Source of the DNA: Alphaproteobacteria bacterium | Lineage (GTDB): Bacteria; Pseudomonadota; Alphaproteobacteria; JAAEOK01 | DNA: 64,000 bases | Reading direction: 5' to 3' | Assembly: GCA_024244705.1 (NCBI GenBank) | Contig: JAAEOK010000082.1 | Location: forward strand, 1 to 64,000 | Shown here: in pieces, positions 358-39,006 of the stretch | Layout: each line of letters opens with the position of its first letter | Numbering within the stretch: position 1 is the stretch's first letter | Translations under genes and position numbers: made by a program | Notes under the pieces: model-generated | What the model was told of the DNA's origin: nothing | Databases searched by the model: none | The model's input: only the letters and a program-made list of their open reading frames with translations

Positions 358-996
358 ATGAGTATGAAAGCAGCAGAACGATCAGCTGGCTCAGATCTGG
401 TACTTGCCACGCAGGGACAGAAGTTTGGAACAATCCTCGCCGACCCGCCATGGCAGTTCCAAAATCGAACTGGCAAGATTGCTCCTGAGCATCGTCGACT
501 ATCGCGCTATCCGACGCTTACACTGGAAGACATTTGCGCACTGCCCGTATCAGGTTTGGCAGCCGAAATGGCGCATCTCTACCTCTGGGTGCCAAACGCA
601 TTGTTACCTGAAGGCCTTCGTGTGATGACGGCCTGGGGCTTTCAGTATAAATCGAACATCGTGTGGCACAAGATTCGGAAAGACGGTGGATCTGACGGTC
701 GGGGCGTCGGTTTTTATTTCCGTAACGTCACTGAGCTTCTCCTCTTTGGAACGCGTGGCAAGAACGTCCGGACCTTCGATCCAGGAAGACGTCAAGTGAA
801 TATGATCGAGGCTCGAAAGCGGGAACACAGCCGCAAGCCGGACGAGCAATATGACATTGTCGAGAAGTGCAGCCCTGAGCCTCGCATCGAACTCTTCGCC
901 CGCGGTGGCCGAGAAGATTGGACAGTTTGGGGCAATCAATCGGTAGAATACGTACCGACCTGGTCGACGATTAGATACCGGGAAGTCGCCGTCTAG
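358..996 (+). CDS. MT-A70 family adenine-N6 methyltransferase
   Basis: A 212-aa SAM-dependent methyltransferase of the MT-A70 family, which methylates N6 of adenine in DNA (prokaryotic members) or RNA. The catalytic DPPW motif is at residues 29-32, after a TILA strand. A conserved block with EHSRKPDE near residues 156-163 and the RIELFAR...WGNQ ending near 176-193 are typical of the family. An ATG preceded by AGAGAG supports the start. The gene converges on an unknown gene that is the second of a two-gene operon with a DGQHR protein; only 5 bp separate the stop codons. The trio sits in an AT-richer accessory segment, so a role in DNA modification, perhaps with defence, is likely but inferred. 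No cognate restriction nuclease is recognisable. Confidence 0.9.
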   Translation: MSMKAAERSAGSDLVLATQGQKFGTILADPPWQFQNRTGKIAPEHRRLSRYPTLTLEDICALPVSGLAAEMAHLYLWVPNALLPEGLRVMTAWGFQYKSNIVWHKIRKDGGSDGRGVGFYFRNVTELLLFGTRGKNVRTFDPGRRQVNMIEARKREHSRKPDEQYDIVEKCSPEPRIELFARGGREDWTVWGNQSVEYVPTWSTIRYREVAV

Positions 997-1001
997 TATG
1001 A

Positions 1002-2345
1002 TTACCCCGGACAAAGGGCCCAGAGCCCGACCCGCTCATGGCTGCAAAGGACGCTGAACCGGTCGCCGAGATTGGTAGCGATACCAGTGGCAGTCTGCAT
1101 AGACCTTGGATCTGCGTCACCAAGTCGCGCAATATCGTCGATCGCATCTCTCACGTCGGCCCAAAGGTCGCTCAACGTTTCGGGTGGCACCTCGATGGCC
1201 CAAAGTCCCCGCGTTTCGCCAATCGGCCTCCACCAAAATTCCAATTCGTTCTCGCGGAAACCTGCCTTCTGGAGCAAATCGTTCGCGGAACCTGTCGCAA
1301 TCCGAAGAAGCAAGACCGCTCGGGATGTCACCGAAAACACGTCTATCGCTTGGCCAATGGGGGCGTTAGTAGAGTAGTGGAAGATAGTCGGATCTTTTGG
1401 GACCTGGCGCCGCAGTAGGAAATCACGCCAACGTTTTGCAGCCGACTGAGATAGTCCTCGGGCGGCAAGTATCTGGTCTACCAATCGAACGAACTCTCGA
1501 TTGCCGCGGTCGGCGATTGTGCCTGTTGAACCGGCGAAGTGCCGTTCCAAGGCGTACCGCAGGATGTGTCGGTCAATCTCCTCAAAACTTGATGGGATGC
1601 TCGGCTCAAGTGCCGCCCAGAGGTCTTGCACAAAACCAAGCCTGGCGGTTGGAGTAATCGTCCACGTGGACGGAATACCATCAGGCCGATAACTAGACTC
1701 GTTTCTTGCGTCCCGATCTCTTGTCGCAAGATTTAGATCCATACCCCACTGTTGGAACCAGTCTTGAGCTTGGGGCGCCAGAGTTTGGCTACCACCAACT
1801 GGTAGAAACCAATCGTCGAGGGTATGGCCTTCCGGCCGAACAAGCCTCGCAAACAACGCACCAGACGAAGGTTGTTGACTCCAATATTTCAAGGCCGCCC
1901 AAGCTATTTGGTGAGTGCCCAAATTCGTGGTGAGGCGGGCCGTCGCATTGACGTCGCTGACAATAAAGTGCCTGTGATTGAAGACCCCAATACCAGCTCC
2001 CGCGAGCAGCGACATACCAGCTCGCAGTTCTGCGTAGTAGGCCAAGTGCAGAGCCCGGTGAGCGTCGCCGGTCATTAGACACGCGACCGTGCGCCCCACG
2101 TATCCCCATGCATCATTGGCGTGGAGCACCGCGCTGGCCGCGATATATTGGGCCAAATTTCTCTTCTGCCGTTGAGTGAGTGGGTGGTCTCTTTTCAGCC
2201 TCTCGACGACGCTTTTTGCATATCGATTGGTTTTTCCGATCCACCGGGAATCTCTCACGAACCGTTTCAGACCGGCGAATGTATCCTGTATGTCCGACCG
2301 CGAAAGTGCCGCGATTGGCGTTTGATCTGCAACGGGGAGCGTCAT
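1002..2345 (-). CDS. uncharacterised protein, partner of DGQHR protein
   Basis: A 447-aa soluble protein that I do not recognise. It starts with ATG overlapping the stop of the upstream DGQHR gene by four bases (ATGA), so the two are probably translationally coupled. Around residues 78-128 there is a helical stretch with AYYAELRAG followed by NHRH, which vaguely recalls HEPN/YaaC-like domains (an Arg followed by a downstream His). This resemblance is weak and I would not name it HEPN on this basis. The C-terminal half has no membrane segments or evident catalytic motif. Its location opposite an MT-A70 methyltransferase suggests a role in DNA modification or phage resistance. This is inference from context only. 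Confidence 0.75.
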   Translation of the reverse strand: MTLPVADQTPIAALSRSDIQDTFAGLKRFVRDSRWIGKTNRYAKSVVERLKRDHPLTQRQKRNLAQYIAASAVLHANDAWGYVGRTVACLMTGDAHRALHLAYYAELRAGMSLLAGAGIGVFNHRHFIVSDVNATARLTTNLGTHQIAWAALKYWSQQPSSGALFARLVRPEGHTLDDWFLPVGGSQTLAPQAQDWFQQWGMDLNLATRDRDARNESSYRPDGIPSTWTITPTARLGFVQDLWAALEPSIPSSFEEIDRHILRYALERHFAGSTGTIADRGNREFVRLVDQILAARGLSQSAAKRWRDFLLRRQVPKDPTIFHYSTNAPIGQAIDVFSVTSRAVLLLRIATGSANDLLQKAGFRENELEFWWRPIGETRGLWAIEVPPETLSDLWADVRDAIDDIARLGDADPRSMQTATGIATNLGDRFSVLCSHERVGLWALCPG

Positions 2346-3859
2346 GTCCGCTCCTCGTCTACAAAATGTTTAGCTGCGTCAGCCACCTCACCTTTGCCTT
2401 TAGCTAAGTGTTCCAGGAGCTGTGTACGAAGCTCTTTGTATCCACTGCTTCCCCTGAAAACGAGCTTCGCCCGGCGATCTTGTTCCTCTAACTCTGGCGC
2501 CGAGCTCGTCCGCCAGTCGAAACCGGCGAGCGACTGGCCGACTGATTTGAGGAAAGGAGCGAAATCCTGCTTTTCAAGAGTCTTCAGATGGCCCTCAACG
2601 GACTTGACCGGGTCAGAGGGCGCGCGTTCATTCGGAATCCAATTGTTTAGTTTCAGCACAGTCGCCCGGATGTAGCAAAGGTCGTTCACAACCTGGAGGT
2701 AGCCGCGCACGCCCTGATCGGTCGCAATCAGCGAGAACGGACCGTAAAAGGCTAAATCGTCCTTGAATGTTCTCTTCTCTGGGCGTTGCCGCAACTTTTC
2801 GGCCCAATCCGCCGTTGATGCTTGGACGGCGGTCTTAAAAATGTTCCAAATGAAGATCAGGAACGCGGACTGTTGGGCTCTACTCCAGCCCAACACCTCG
2901 CCGACACGCTTTGAGCGTCCACCAAAGAGACCGCCAGCTTTGCCTGCTCGGCCCTCCCAGGGTCGAACGAATGTGGCGATAAGTGACTTGACCCAGGCGC
3001 TCTGCGAAACCCAAGGAATTTGGCGCTCGCCGAGCATATTGATACGATCATACCAAGGGCTCGAAGGATGTGACCAGAGGATCTCTGTCAGTTCCTGTGC
3101 CCGGGTCTCTCGGTAGATAGCGTGTCCCTCAGCTCGGTCGAGCCAGTCTTCGCTGCGAAGCAACGGATAGAGGTCGAACGCCAAGCTGGCGTTAATCCGC
3201 TTAGGTTTGATGTTGATGGTCCAGAAAAGATAGGCCTGCCAACTAATATCCAGGCCAACAAAGGCCACAACGGGGAGTTCAAAGCCGGCGATCTGCGAGC
3301 TGTTGTCGAAGGCCCAAAGTCGGTGCTGGCCATCGATCACTTCGAAAGGCGGCAACTTGGTCGGCGACCAGTCCGCAGTCCACTTCGCGTAGGGAAGCTG
3401 TAGCGTGCAGATACCATCAGCGTCTAACATTACAGCCAGGTCGCGATTTTCGATCATCGCTCCGCCGCGTTCACTGCCCTTGACCAGAATATTTAAAACC
3501 ACCGCTGTCGGCAGCCATCCGGGTTTTCTTAGGTCGTTAAACTCTACACTTAGACGCTTTGTCTTGCTTAGTGTCGACCAAGGGTAGCCGTATTCCACAA
3601 ACCGGCTGATTTCTTCTGACCGTCCAGGGTCATGTTGACGCTGGATGCCAAGGTCAGCGGTACGAGGCTGGGCGTTCTTAGCCTGGCGACGGACGATCCC
3701 GGACAAGCTTCGTAGCTCTCGGGCTGGCAACGAAAATATGTAAAAGTGCGGAGGCGGTTTGGTACGGTATTCAGTGGGATCAAAGTCAATCTTATTCCAA
3801 CCAGGCAACCACTGGCGGACCTTCAATGCTTGGATTTGGCGAAGTTTGGCTTCAGGCAT
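2342..3859 (-). CDS. DGQHR domain-containing protein (DndB-like superfamily)
   Basis: A 505-aa protein with the defining IDGQHR motif at about residues 175-180, preceded by PPFEV and followed by RLWAFD. This places it in the DGQHR superfamily, which includes DndB of DNA phosphorothioation systems and DpdB-type proteins of deazaguanine DNA modification systems. Related folds occur in ParB/Srx-like proteins. The ATG at 3859 is preferred to the TTG one codon upstream. It is the first gene of a two-gene operon with the unknown 447-aa protein. None of dndA/C/D/E or the dpd genes are visible, so this is not a standard Dnd or Dpd locus. With a neighbouring MT-A70 methyltransferase, a modification or defence role is plausible. 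Confidence 0.85.
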   Translation of the reverse strand: MPEAKLRQIQALKVRQWLPGWNKIDFDPTEYRTKPPPHFYIFSLPARELRSLSGIVRRQAKNAQPRTADLGIQRQHDPGRSEEISRFVEYGYPWSTLSKTKRLSVEFNDLRKPGWLPTAVVLNILVKGSERGGAMIENRDLAVMLDADGICTLQLPYAKWTADWSPTKLPPFEVIDGQHRLWAFDNSSQIAGFELPVVAFVGLDISWQAYLFWTINIKPKRINASLAFDLYPLLRSEDWLDRAEGHAIYRETRAQELTEILWSHPSSPWYDRINMLGERQIPWVSQSAWVKSLIATFVRPWEGRAGKAGGLFGGRSKRVGEVLGWSRAQQSAFLIFIWNIFKTAVQASTADWAEKLRQRPEKRTFKDDLAFYGPFSLIATDQGVRGYLQVVNDLCYIRATVLKLNNWIPNERAPSDPVKSVEGHLKTLEKQDFAPFLKSVGQSLAGFDWRTSSAPELEEQDRRAKLVFRGSSGYKELRTQLLEHLAKGKGEVADAAKHFVDEERT

Positions 3860-3862
3860 CAA

Positions 3863-34020: not shown

Positions 34021-35208
34021 TCAGCGCCCGGCATCGCCGCCGCGGGTTTGCGGCAGCTTGCGTCCGAGGAGTCCGCCGGCCACGACCGTGCGCAGGATTT
34101 GCGCCGTACCGCCGCCGATGGTGAACATGCGGGCATCGCGGACCATGCGTTCGAGCGGCAGATCGCGGCCATAGCCGGCCGCGCCGAACATCTGCAACGC
34201 GTCGTTGGTCACCTTCTGCGCCATTTCGGAGGCGAAGATCTTGGCCTGGGCCGCCTGTACCATGTCCGGAAACCCGTCGCCGGCGCCGGCCGCCGCCTTG
34301 CAGATCATCAGCCGGGCCGCCGCGAGCTCGGTCGCCATGTCGGCGAGCATCCACTGCAGGCCCTGGAATTCGGCGATCGGACGCCCGAACTGGTGCCGCG
34401 TCTTGACCCGCTCCAGCGCCAGCTCGTAGGCGCCCTGGGCGAGGCCGAGCGCGACCGTGGCGGCACCGACACGCTGCCCGTTATAAGCACTCATCAAATT
34501 GGCGAAGCCGCGCGCGAAGCCGTCGGGCGGCACCAGCACCATGTCCTCGGGCACCGCGAGGTCCTCGAAGACGATCTCGGTCTCGGGAATGCCGCGGAGC
34601 CCCATGGCGTAGGACCGTTGGCCGACCCGCAGGCCTTCGGCCTCGCCGCGGACGGCGAGAAAACCGGCGATTCCCAGCTCGTCGCCGTGCTCATCGTAAA
34701 CCCGGGCGAAGATCACATGGAGCCGCGACACGCCGCCGCCGGTGATCCAGTGCTTCTTGCCGTTGAGGACATAACCGCCGCCGCGCCGGTCGGCGCGCGT
34801 CGTCATTTCGTTGGCCGCGCTGCCGGCCTCCGGCTCGGTGATACAGATGGCGGGCTTGTCGCCGGCGAGGACGAGTTCGGCGGCGAGACGCTTCTGCTTC
34901 TCGCTACCGTATTTCATGATGGCGCCGATGCCGCCCATATTGCCCTCGACCACGATCCGCGCGGTGACGCCGCAGACCTTGGCCATTTCCTCGATCACCA
35001 CGACGGTGTCGAGATAGGACCGCCCTTGGCCGCCGTATTCGACCGGGATGGTCATGCCCATGAAACCGGCCGCGGTCAGTTTCTCGACATTGTCCCAGGG
35101 GTAGGATTCGCTGCGGTCAACCTCGGCCGCGCGCGCGCGAATTGCCGATTCGGCGAGGTCGCGGGCGGCCTGCTGCAGGTTCCGTTGGTCGTCGGTCAGC
35201 TCGAACAT
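34021..35208 (-). CDS. acyl-CoA dehydrogenase
   Basis: A 395-aa FAD flavoprotein of the acyl-CoA dehydrogenase family. It has the N-terminal helical domain, then ITEPEAGSAANEM (FAD and substrate binding), WITGGGVS, and the C-terminal helical domain with RHQFGRPIAEFQGLQWMLADM and LQMFGAAGYGRDLPLERMVRDARMFTIGGGTAQI. The catalytic base is at the usual Glu position region before the C-terminal helix only if ERMVRDAR is shifted; I could not place it with certainty. It is followed by the TPR gene. Upstream lies the 70-bp direct repeat bordering the inserted segment. Confidence 0.9.
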   Translation of the reverse strand: MFELTDDQRNLQQAARDLAESAIRARAAEVDRSESYPWDNVEKLTAAGFMGMTIPVEYGGQGRSYLDTVVVIEEMAKVCGVTARIVVEGNMGGIGAIMKYGSEKQKRLAAELVLAGDKPAICITEPEAGSAANEMTTRADRRGGGYVLNGKKHWITGGGVSRLHVIFARVYDEHGDELGIAGFLAVRGEAEGLRVGQRSYAMGLRGIPETEIVFEDLAVPEDMVLVPPDGFARGFANLMSAYNGQRVGAATVALGLAQGAYELALERVKTRHQFGRPIAEFQGLQWMLADMATELAAARLMICKAAAGAGDGFPDMVQAAQAKIFASEMAQKVTNDALQMFGAAGYGRDLPLERMVRDARMFTIGGGTAQILRTVVAGGLLGRKLPQTRGGDAGR

Positions 35209-35253
35209 GGGCGCACTCCCAACCGCTCTCCGGGCGATCGCGAAACCTGCAGG

Positions 35254-35323
35254 ATGGGGTGACGGCGCGGGCGAGGCAAGCCTTCGCGAAAGGCCCTACA
35301 TGTACCCTTCGACGCGGAGCCGT
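35254..35323 (+). repeat. 70-bp direct repeat, left copy
   Basis: Identical, base for base, to 38077-38146. Its right part is a copy of the last 28 bases of cysD. It also contains the inverted repeat GCCTTCGCGAAAGGC. It marks the left end of the inserted segment. Confidence 0.95.
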
Positions 35324-35540
35324 AGCGCTCCGTGAACGGAGTATGTGCGGATGTGCACACCATACCGGTTGACTTTCGTTGCCGTCCGTCAATAGCGTCG
35401 GTTGTACTAATCGAAAGTTTTCCAATCGGGGCCGTGAGTTCAGCGCGCAAAATGCATTGGCCAATCTGAAAAAACACGGACGCACACAGTCCTTGGACAA
35501 CTGGACTGCAATTGCGGTCTTGCCAGGTCGCTGGTTAGGC

Positions 35541-36638
35541 ATGGTTCTCCTGAACAAGTTTGTGCTGATATTCGCATTCCTGCTCCTGGGAATTTCTGTG
35601 CCGTCGTTATCGCGCGGGTCGGCCGCCTCCTTCGATGAAGCTGTGGACAGGCTCGAAGCAGGGGAGTTCGAACTCGCTCAATCTCTTTTGTCAGCATCCG
35701 TCATGGACGGCGACACCCGAGCGGCGGCTCTGTTGGGCTATCTACTGGCAGAGGGGACAATTCTGGACGGCGAATATGAGAAAGGGATCCGTCTGCTGGA
35801 ATTGGCCGCCGAGGACGGTGAACCATCAGCCCTTTACTGGCTAGGGAGCACCTTGCTGTCTGTCCAAGAGGGGCAATCCGATTTACCCACGTTAGCGAAG
35901 ATTGAAAATCCGCGTGACGTTGGTCTCCAATATCTGCACCTGGCGGCAGATGCCGGCCATCCAGACGCGATGTATCTGTTGGGTGAAACCTACTTGGCAA
36001 CGTCCGACCCTGGGGATAGCAACGAAATCGCAAGACACTGGCTTGAGAAGGCTGCGGCAAACGGACGCATTCTGGCCAGTTCACGCATCGCCATCATTCC
36101 TGCCTTACAGGGCCAGCGTCTGACAACCGAGCAAATCGGCAAGATGGTGGAGATTGCCCCCGACGGTGACGCGGTGCTTCATACGGCTCTTGCGTCTGCA
36201 TACCTGAACCGAGCCAAGGACGACCACGACACCGAGCAGGGCCTAATGTGGCTCAACGTCGCCATCATGGGCACACCCCAGGCGGCCCTGACGCCACTGG
36301 CTCAACTGCTTGCGCAATACCAGTTGGGAGCCCACGCCGCCTCAAATCCAATGGCGGAATTGCTGGCGCAAAATAAACCGATCGACGCTCGCATCCTCGC
36401 CAACGCAAGACGCGACGCCGAGGCGTGGCTTTTGAGCGCGGCGGGACGGGGAGATTCTCTTCTATCATCTGCGTCGGCCTGGTGCCAGCGGGAAAGGCCC
36501 GGCTCGGTCGAGTGTATTGGCCAATCGATAGTAAGACACCGAATGTGCCAAGTCCCGTATTTCCCAGGCTATTTTCAGGACTACTACTTGTCCTCTGCAT
36601 ACGACAAATGTCGCAGATCACTCGAAGCCAAAGACTGA
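35541..36638 (+). CDS. exported Sel1-like repeat protein
   Basis: A 365-aa protein. A signal peptide or anchor (LLNKFVLIFAFLLLGISVPS) leads to helical Sel1/TPR-like repeats: FDEAVDRLEAGEFELAQSLL, then AAALLGYLLAEGTILDGEYEKG, ALYWLGSTLL, GLQYLHLAADAGHPDAMYLLGE and HWLEKAAANGRI. The C-terminus has four to five cysteines, likely forming disulfides. The ATG at 35541 is chosen because it begins the signal peptide. It lies inside the segment between the 70-bp repeats and is followed 28 bp later by the Hint gene. Sel1 proteins often act as adaptors in secretion or signalling. Confidence 0.78.
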   Translation: MVLLNKFVLIFAFLLLGISVPSLSRGSAASFDEAVDRLEAGEFELAQSLLSASVMDGDTRAAALLGYLLAEGTILDGEYEKGIRLLELAAEDGEPSALYWLGSTLLSVQEGQSDLPTLAKIENPRDVGLQYLHLAADAGHPDAMYLLGETYLATSDPGDSNEIARHWLEKAAANGRILASSRIAIIPALQGQRLTTEQIGKMVEIAPDGDAVLHTALASAYLNRAKDDHDTEQGLMWLNVAIMGTPQAALTPLAQLLAQYQLGAHAASNPMAELLAQNKPIDARILANARRDAEAWLLSAAGRGDSLLSSASAWCQRERPGSVECIGQSIVRHRMCQVPYFPGYFQDYYLSSAYDKCRRSLEAKD

Positions 36639-36666
36639 TTCAATCAAACGGAAGGAGCCACTAGGT

Positions 36667-37962
36667 ATGGTATTAATTGCACAAACTCATCCTCCGAAAA
36701 CAATGATTGAGAGTATGGCAGGTCTTGTGACGGAATTGCTCGGAGAATTAAACAACCCTGTAATTGGTGTTGAGCAGTTTGTGGAAATTTTTCACGTCGA
36801 ACGTGCAAATAGAGCCACAGAAACATTAGCAAGTGTCGGCGTACCTGGGGAACGAATTCAAGCTCTCGACCTATTTACCTTAGGCATCATAGACGAGGTT
36901 ATTGCTAAGACGAACACGCCCGGTGCGCCTATCGGCAGGGATGCAACTGTCACGATGGTTCACGCCCGTCGGTTCGGAGAAATCATGAAGCTAGAATTCG
37001 ATACGTTGATCAGTGCCGGGTTAGACAACGACACAGCACTTCGGCTGGCCTATGACAAGGCCTACGCCCAATACGATCCCGCCGAAATGGAAACCGGGAT
37101 CATTATTACGGGTGGGATGGACGACGACGATCCCAACGCAATTAGGCTTAGTCCGGCCGATTTTTGCTTCGCGGCCGGGACGTCGATCAAGCTCGCGGAC
37201 GGATCGGAAAAGCCGATCGAACGGATTAGGGTCGGCGACATGGTCATGGCCTTCGATCCTGAGCACGACAACGGTCGTGGCGGCTTGGTGCCGAAGCGCG
37301 TGACCCGCACCTATGTCAATCATAACCAAAGGGTCATCGACTTCCACGGCACGCTGGTCACCCCCGGCCATGTTTATCTGACGGACGGCGGAATCTTCAA
37401 ACCGCTCATGGACATCATCCGCGAGGACGGCGTCGTCATCCGCGACGATGGCTGCCGCATTCGTGCGGCGACTAACTGCGAGGTCGGCAGCGAAGGGGAC
37501 CAATTTGTGCAGATCGCCTACATAACTGAATGGGGGCGGCGAGACTGGAAAGCCACCCGCGCCCGTGCCGGAACGCTCCGGTTGAAACCCGATGGGACGG
37601 CGACCTCGTTCATCGACTATATCGAGCGCCACCGATACACGCTCCTGCCGAATGGCTTGATCGTTCGCGACGGGGAACAACCGCATCCCTTACCCTATTG
37701 CGGGCCGGCACCAAGACCGGAGGACTACGTGCTTCAAAAGAGCGGGCTGACCTTGGCCGATCTCTATGACGACGGCGGCGACGGCAGGACGGTGCCGCCG
37801 CGACCTTCGGTAATCGCTGGCGGCGGACTATCGAACCTGTCCGACTGGTCCGATGTGATAAGCGTGTCCGGCGGCGACAGGTCAAATGCCCAGGACGAAG
37901 CCGATGGCCGAGTGCAGGTCGAAGCCGTACAACACCAAAGAGCAGGCGAGGTTGTTCACTGA
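36667..37962 (+). CDS. Hint (hedgehog/intein-type) domain protein
   Basis: A 431-aa protein. Residues 1-160 are an unrecognised, AT-rich-coded helical N-terminal region. A Hint autoprocessing domain starts at Cys167 (DFCFAAGTSIKLADGSEKPI, the N-terminal splice/cleavage block) and has RVGDMVMAFD and the TPGHVYLTDGG block (232-242), whose His assists the N-S acyl shift. The domain ends without an Asn-plus-nucleophile junction that I can identify, so N-terminal cleavage is more likely than splicing. The last 40 residues look out of frame or unconstrained. GGAAGGAG precedes the ATG. Such proteins in alphaproteobacteria are often secreted. Function unknown. Confidence 0.8.
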   Translation: MVLIAQTHPPKTMIESMAGLVTELLGELNNPVIGVEQFVEIFHVERANRATETLASVGVPGERIQALDLFTLGIIDEVIAKTNTPGAPIGRDATVTMVHARRFGEIMKLEFDTLISAGLDNDTALRLAYDKAYAQYDPAEMETGIIITGGMDDDDPNAIRLSPADFCFAAGTSIKLADGSEKPIERIRVGDMVMAFDPEHDNGRGGLVPKRVTRTYVNHNQRVIDFHGTLVTPGHVYLTDGGIFKPLMDIIREDGVVIRDDGCRIRAATNCEVGSEGDQFVQIAYITEWGRRDWKATRARAGTLRLKPDGTATSFIDYIERHRYTLLPNGLIVRDGEQPHPLPYCGPAPRPEDYVLQKSGLTLADLYDDGGDGRTVPPRPSVIAGGGLSNLSDWSDVISVSGGDRSNAQDEADGRVQVEAVQHQRAGEVVH

Positions 37963-38076
37963 CTTTCGGTGCCGGGTCAATCGAATTCGATCGTCGCGGA
38001 TCGCACCGCGTCCAAGTTCAGGAGACACAAGAGATGTTTGTCAAGGCGAGCTCAGTAGCGCCGCCAGGGAGTCAGC

Positions 38077-38146
38077 ATGGGGTGACGGCGCGGGCGAGGC
38101 AAGCCTTCGCGAAAGGCCCTACATGTACCCTTCGACGCGGAGCCGT
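38077..38146 (+). repeat. 70-bp direct repeat, right copy, overlapping cysD 3' end
   Basis: Identical to 35254-35323. Bases 38119-38146 are the 3' end of cysD including its stop codon. Bases 38103-38117 form an inverted repeat (GCCTT...AAGGC) just downstream of that stop, which could be the cysD terminator hairpin, though no T tract follows. Confidence 0.95.
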
Positions 38147-38916
38147 TCGAAGGCGTCCTCGCTCTCATGGTCCATGGCGCGGCCGGAACGCTCGGCGACC
38201 TTGGTGTCGCGAAGTTCGTCGATGATCTCCTCGATCGACGTCGCCGTGCTGGCGACCGGCGCGGTGATGTCCTCGTCGCCGAGCGAGCGATAGCGCTTGC
38301 CGTCGGTGGCGAAGTAGAGGCCGATCGTCGGGATGCCCTCGCGCAAGGTGTAACGCCAGATATCGATCTCGGTCCAGTGCAGCAGGGGATGGATGCGGAC
38401 GTGGGTGCCGGGCGGAAAATCGGTCTTGAACTGATCCCAGAACTCGGGCGGCTGGTCGCGAAAGTCCCACTGGCCGTGATCGCCGCGCGGACTGAACACC
38501 CGTTCCTTGGCGCGGGTCGCTTCCTCGTCGCGGCGGATGCCGGCGATGACCCCGGTGAAGCCGCCGTCCTCGATGACCTTCTTGAGCCCCGCCGTCTTGC
38601 GCGCCGCCGACCGCGCCGCCGGGGGCAGCGACTGGTCCATGTCCTCGATCGGCGGACATTGGCCCTGGATGAGCATCAGCTCCCATTCCTCCACGTAACG
38701 GTCGCGGAATTCGTACATCTCCTTGAACTTCTTTCCGGTATCGACGTGGATCACGGGGAATGGGACATGGCCGAAGAAGGCCTTCTTGGCGAGCCACACC
38801 ATGACGTTCGAATCCTTGCCCAGCGACCACAACATGCCGATCTTGTCGAGGCGGTTGTAGGCTTCGCGCAGGATGAAGATGCTTTGGCTCTCGAGGGCAT
38901 CGAGATCTTGGGCCAT
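38119..38916 (-). CDS. cysD: sulfate adenylyltransferase subunit 2
   Basis: A 265-aa PP-loop ATP pyrophosphatase, the catalytic subunit that makes adenylyl sulfate from ATP and sulfate. The SLGKDS PP-loop is near residue 36, followed by VMVWLAKKAFFG. The conserved HVDTGKKFKEMYEFRD, GIRRDEEATRAKERVFSPRGDHGQWD and the C-terminal LRVEGYM are all present. The ATG at 38916 matches the family's N-terminus. Its partner cysN (or cysNC), normally directly downstream, is absent: the 3' end instead borders the inserted segment, and before that the acyl-CoA dehydrogenase gene. CysN must be encoded elsewhere. Confidence 0.92.
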   Translation of the reverse strand: MAQDLDALESQSIFILREAYNRLDKIGMLWSLGKDSNVMVWLAKKAFFGHVPFPVIHVDTGKKFKEMYEFRDRYVEEWELMLIQGQCPPIEDMDQSLPPAARSAARKTAGLKKVIEDGGFTGVIAGIRRDEEATRAKERVFSPRGDHGQWDFRDQPPEFWDQFKTDFPPGTHVRIHPLLHWTEIDIWRYTLREGIPTIGLYFATDGKRYRSLGDEDITAPVASTATSIEEIIDELRDTKVAERSGRAMDHESEDAFERLRVEGYM

Positions 38917-39006
38917 GATCGCTTCCGTGGTCTGGTGTCGCTTCCCGGGGGATCGGGCGCGCACGTTAATCAGCCCGTGCCGGGTCGTCAACGGCGCTGC
39001 GGCACA

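Follow-up and report, generated by a model that had tools for sequence, protein, structure and literature searches.

At the 3' end of cysD, this genome most likely carries a real, foreign, att-flanked small island without an integrase, which is a kind of element that is already known. The island probably entered through site-specific recombination by a tyrosine recombinase at the end of the gene, and it now has no recombinase of its own. It lies in a window of 64,000 nucleotides, the whole stretch of DNA that was analysed, and its features are collected in Table 1.

Table 1. Features of the cysD insert and its flanks, in window coordinates.
Feature	Coordinates	Strand	Evidence and remarks
Acyl-CoA dehydrogenase gene, other flank	34021..35208	-	Profile match
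Distal direct repeat, attL-like; displaced copy of the cysD 3' end beside the acyl-CoA dehydrogenase gene	35254..35323		Repeat search and genome search
Cargo	35324..38076		2,753 bp; GC 56.7%; no second copy in the genome
Subterminal repeat TGACTTTCGTTGCCG, candidate arm-type recombinase site	35370..35384	+	Comparison of the insert ends
Sel1/TPR-repeat protein with signal-peptide-like N-terminus MVLLNKFVLIFAFLLLGISVPSLSRGSA	35541..36638	+	TPR_27 E 2.7e-8, Sel1 E 5.4e-7, phrog_8741 E 6e-12; start chosen by inference, open frame starts at 35379
Hint-domain protein, 431 aa	36667..37962	+	Hom_end_hint E 1.9e-6, under the curated cut-off; alignment with relatives
Subterminal repeat TGACTTTCGGTGCCG, candidate arm-type recombinase site	37960..37974	+	Comparison of the insert ends
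cysD-proximal direct repeat, attR-like; true cysD 3' end	38077..38146		Repeat search
cysD (sulfate adenylyltransferase subunit 2), intact; stop 38119-38121	38119..38919	-	PAPS_reduct E 6e-35
Inverted repeat CCTTCGA-N11-TCGAAGG (7+7 bp), candidate core site	38129..38153		Comparison of the att regions

A repeat search of the window showed that the insert is flanked by two 70-bp direct repeats that agree at every position, and that these can be extended to 74 nt (35250-35323 and 38073-38146) with a single mismatch at the fourth base. In the 4.5-Mb genome, the full-length repeat occurs at two places only, both at the cysD insert, and the next-best match is 26 bp at 88%. In the right copy, the final 25 sense bases of cysD and the stop codon are followed by 42 bp of flanking sequence on the 3' side; the left copy is located 45 bp upstream of the acyl-CoA dehydrogenase gene. 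Joining the flanks in silico yields a seamless locus, in which cysD is followed by 87 bp, from its stop to the start of the acyl-CoA dehydrogenase gene, and both genes point in the same direction. The preliminary description had stated that the two copies are identical, that one of them is the genuine cysD 3' end, and that removal of one repeat together with the cargo recreates the locus, and all three statements stand. The hairpin that it had placed downstream of the gene proved weak, as the repeat contains a short stem (GCCTT-TCGCG-AAGGC) and the folding of its 70 nt does not surpass that of shuffled sequences (z = 0.63). That the event was recent, or that recombination is ongoing, may be inferred only from the identity of these 70 bp.

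The insert is, judged by its composition, foreign DNA. Its GC content compares with 62.9% for the window, and third-position GC is 0.62-0.64 in both cargo genes versus 0.80-0.87 in most surrounding genes. The codon-use distances of the two genes (7.2 and 7.4) lie above those of typical host genes (mean 4.3, sd 1.4), with one host gene still further out at 8.8. A genome search found no second copy of the cargo. Elsewhere in the window, positions 604-3862 form a block of low third-position GC (0.58-0.61) with three minus-strand open frames, one of which matches DndB (PF14072, E 1e-7), while the other two have no Pfam match; this block is possibly a DNA-modification or defence island.

The cargo encodes a Sel1/TPR-repeat protein and a Hint-domain protein, and among these two genes we found no recombinase or recombinase fragment and no relaxase, transposase, conjugation, or replication gene, in agreement with the earlier claim that the insert has no recombinase gene. 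The Hint core of the 431-aa protein runs from a CFAAGT motif through VTPGH to PEDYVL and SGLTL, and its N-terminal part of about 165 aa has no Pfam match and belongs to no known family. Related Hint proteins are present in 8 of the 384 other genomes of the class sample, with at most four matches per genome, and share a PEDY(V/I/L)L motif (loci L151-L158, L130, and L131, together with window positions 36667-37962). In alignments, most members have only the Hint core in common and differ in their N-terminal parts, and the Hint gene of two loci has a gene for a C39-peptidase ABC exporter nearby. From these sequence features, the family looks like a polymorphic secreted-protein family. In most loci read, the third-position GC of the Hint gene lies below that of its neighbours. 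Comparison of the Hint protein with phage, plasmid, and IMG/VR sequences gave partial matches to the Hint core or none. None of 11 related Hint loci has a flanking repeat above chance length, which indicates that the 70-bp repeat belongs to the insertion at cysD and not to the gene family.

Two further repeat patterns resemble recombinase sites. Just inside both insert ends lies a 15-bp direct repeat, TGACTTTCG(T/G)TGCCG, which is similar to an arm-type site; its two copies have the same orientation and are identical at 14 of 15 positions. In null tests that compared the 150-bp inner ends of the insert, a 14/15 match was reached by none of 1000 first-order Markov nulls and by 11 of 2000 random window pairs. 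When the inner ends were compared more loosely, with gaps allowed, the result was marginal: 130 of 3000 shuffles and one in three random window pairs scored as well. Across the genome, TGACTTTCGNTGCCG is matched exactly at the two subterminal sites and nowhere else, and among the IMG/VR matches listed the 15-bp repeat gave scattered single hits only. The second pattern is an inverted repeat that spans the border of the 70-bp block on the side of the gene, its right arm starting exactly at this border; 0.45% of window positions satisfy a search of the same leniency. Such a layout, in which the core lies at the edge facing the gene, arm-type repeats stand to either side of it, and the gene regains its 3' end, is that of a tyrosine-recombinase attP. 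The target-preserving, tyrosine-recombinase-like pattern described initially is supported as an att-like anatomy, with a foreign insert, an intact cysD, and both subterminal and edge repeats. Because these repeats were noticed after the fact, they support the tyrosine-recombinase reading without proving it, and since the insert contains no recombinase or fragment of one, the enzyme class has to be read from such post hoc patterns.

In the sequence of events that we favour, the attP of a circular form would have carried a copy of the last bases of cysD and of the 3' flank, and would have recombined with the chromosomal cysD end. The crossover would have taken place at, or close to, the border of the 70-bp block that faces the gene; cysD would thereby have regained its end from the incoming copy, and the original end would have moved to the distal side. 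The recombinase may afterwards have been lost by deletion, leaving a remnant similar to a cis-mobilizable element (CIME), which is the option we prefer, or it may have acted from elsewhere. The preliminary description had suggested a search of the genome for tyrosine recombinases; this search gave seven hits (PF00589 profile), all on contigs other than that of cysD, and tied none of them to the insert ends. The subterminal repeat was not found near any of the seven, and the att region shares with the compared integrase loci only words of chance-level length (12-18 bp). One of the seven lies beside the tRNA-Val repeat described below, and by its domain make-up at least one other hit appears to resemble the housekeeping recombinases XerC/XerD. 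A pair of one-mismatch hits to the subterminal repeat on contig C42 was considered as a possible helper element, but the region is a housekeeping one with an aminotransferase gene, and the candidate was rejected.

The same genome contains an ordinary integrase-bearing island at a tRNA-Val gene (contig C18), in which a 55-bp repeat of the tRNA-Val 3' end (L125, 2038-2092 and 14562-14616) encloses about 12.5 kb, and a tyrosine recombinase is encoded next to the distal copy. Like the cysD insert, this island is marked by a duplicated gene end, but unlike it, it has its own tyrosine recombinase. The seven PF00589 hits and the tRNA-Val island together show that the host is colonised by tyrosine-recombinase elements, in keeping with the favoured reading of the cysD insert.

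Comparable islands have been described in other bacteria. CIMEs derive by deletion from an ICE or IME and are mobilised in cis once accretion has joined them to such an element at the same site. They retain both attL and attR, have no genes for recombination or transfer, and are 1.2-13 kb long; in Streptococcus salivarius, they occupy the 3' ends of the protein genes rpmG, rpsI, fda, and rplL (PMC7563491, PMC5704250). Many islands reside in protein-coding genes whose sequence is restored (PMC12884075), and tyrosine-integrase islands occur in the 3' ends of protein genes, such as SGI1 at trmE and the dusA islands (PMC8409611). As integrase-less islands in such 3' ends are already on record (PMC7563491), the initial view that protein genes are rarer targets is not supported. 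The cysD insert resembles CIMEs in having attL/attR-like repeats, a content limited to cargo, a length of 2.75 kb, and a location at the 3' end of a protein gene. Both putative att sites are kept as perfect 70-bp repeats, one of which is the genuine gene end, and the two-gene cargo has no recombinase, relaxase, or conjugation gene. Autonomous tyrosine-recombinase elements have an integrase beside an att site, which is absent here. In contrast to the CIMEs described, the cysD insert lies in an unrelated, alphaproteobacterium-like host, has cysD as its target, and is solitary, with no ICE or IME in tandem. Neither the genome nor the class sample yielded a complete element homologous to the insert, and no remnant of an ICE or IME module was found. 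As descent from an ICE or IME is not demonstrable, we do not formally file the insert as a CIME. It shares with SGI1 and the dusA islands the integration at a protein-gene 3' end, but has no integrase or mobilisation gene. A description of the cysD 3' end as an integration site was not found in the literature.

The cysD loci of other species were compared with this one; the collection contains no other genome of the same genus, family, or order, and no second genome showed an empty or differently filled site. At the protein level, the best-matching relatives of cysD share about 80% identity with it. A duplicated cysD end is absent from the 65 testable loci among 80 relative loci, where the longest shared words measure 13-16 bp, and a single relative locus has an integrase match near cysD, about 5 kb away (L081). 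The C-terminus of cysD has no match in phage records. In two IMG/VR contigs with a close cysD relative (L134 and L135), phage-like genes lie upstream of that gene rather than next to its 3' end, and L134 terminates exactly at the cysD stop codon. In 76 of the 80 loci, a cysN(C) relative directly follows cysD. The cysNC gene of this genome is located apart from cysD, on another contig beside leuS (contig C49:7539-9437, L118), with no copy of the repeat. In one relative locus (L028), cysD is followed by korB, with no insert and no adjacent cysN, so this genome is not alone in having cysD and cysN apart. Whether the insertion is tied to this separation was considered, and no support was found, given the repeat-free cysNC locus and the similar split in L028.

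Other routes to the same arrangement are improbable to varying degrees. A staggered double-strand break in the 3' region of cysD may have captured foreign DNA without any recombinase, the direct repeat then being made by fill-in of an overhang of about 70 nt; the location at the end of a gene would follow because only insertions at gene ends survive. This route fits an insert without a recombinase and the repeat-free state of the 11 other loci with related Hint genes, most of which also show lower third-position GC and no nearby match to the integrases of this genome. It is nevertheless unlikely, as a fill-in of 70 nt is long and both the subterminal 15-bp repeat and the inverted repeat at the edge are left unexplained. 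Somewhat less likely still is an assembler merger of the chromosome with a 2.8-kb circular replicon or excised form that carries the repeat. An assembler working with k below 70 would build one and the same graph from the integrated form and from an empty-site chromosome accompanied by a circle, and the consensus cannot separate them; the genome is also fragmented (127 contigs) and has 4.4% contamination. Against this, the repeat lies inside a 125-kb contig, the cargo has no replication gene, and the 70 bp are shorter than the largest k of common assemblers. Had such a merger taken place, the circle, by carrying the cysD end, would nonetheless qualify as an integrating element.

Homologous recombination could also have integrated a non-replicating circle that carries the cysD end, in a Campbell-type event for which 70 bp of perfect homology could suffice. 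This is very improbable, as it does not explain why a small foreign circle should hold a piece of host cysD and its non-coding flank, unless that piece was already an att site. The preliminary description had suggested that the insert may be a new minimal element mobilised in trans. In its boldest form, this idea would make the insert a naturally minimal cassette of two genes that has att and arm sites of its own, remains mobile today, and receives its tyrosine recombinase from elsewhere. We consider this improbable, as no linked helper was found and the related Hint genes elsewhere stand without flanking repeats. Entry by site-specific recombination at the cysD 3' end, with the recombinase since absent from the island, is the reading that we retain.

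If the cassette were mobilised in trans, it would insert at cysD 3' ends and would spread secreted Sel1/Hint-domain proteins. Unless such present-day mobility is shown, the picture of how integrase-less islands work is unchanged. Our analysis adds cysD as a probable attachment site, and it illustrates how the duplication of a gene end can reveal, even in one fragmented assembly, islands without an integrase, which escape island finders that rely on this gene.
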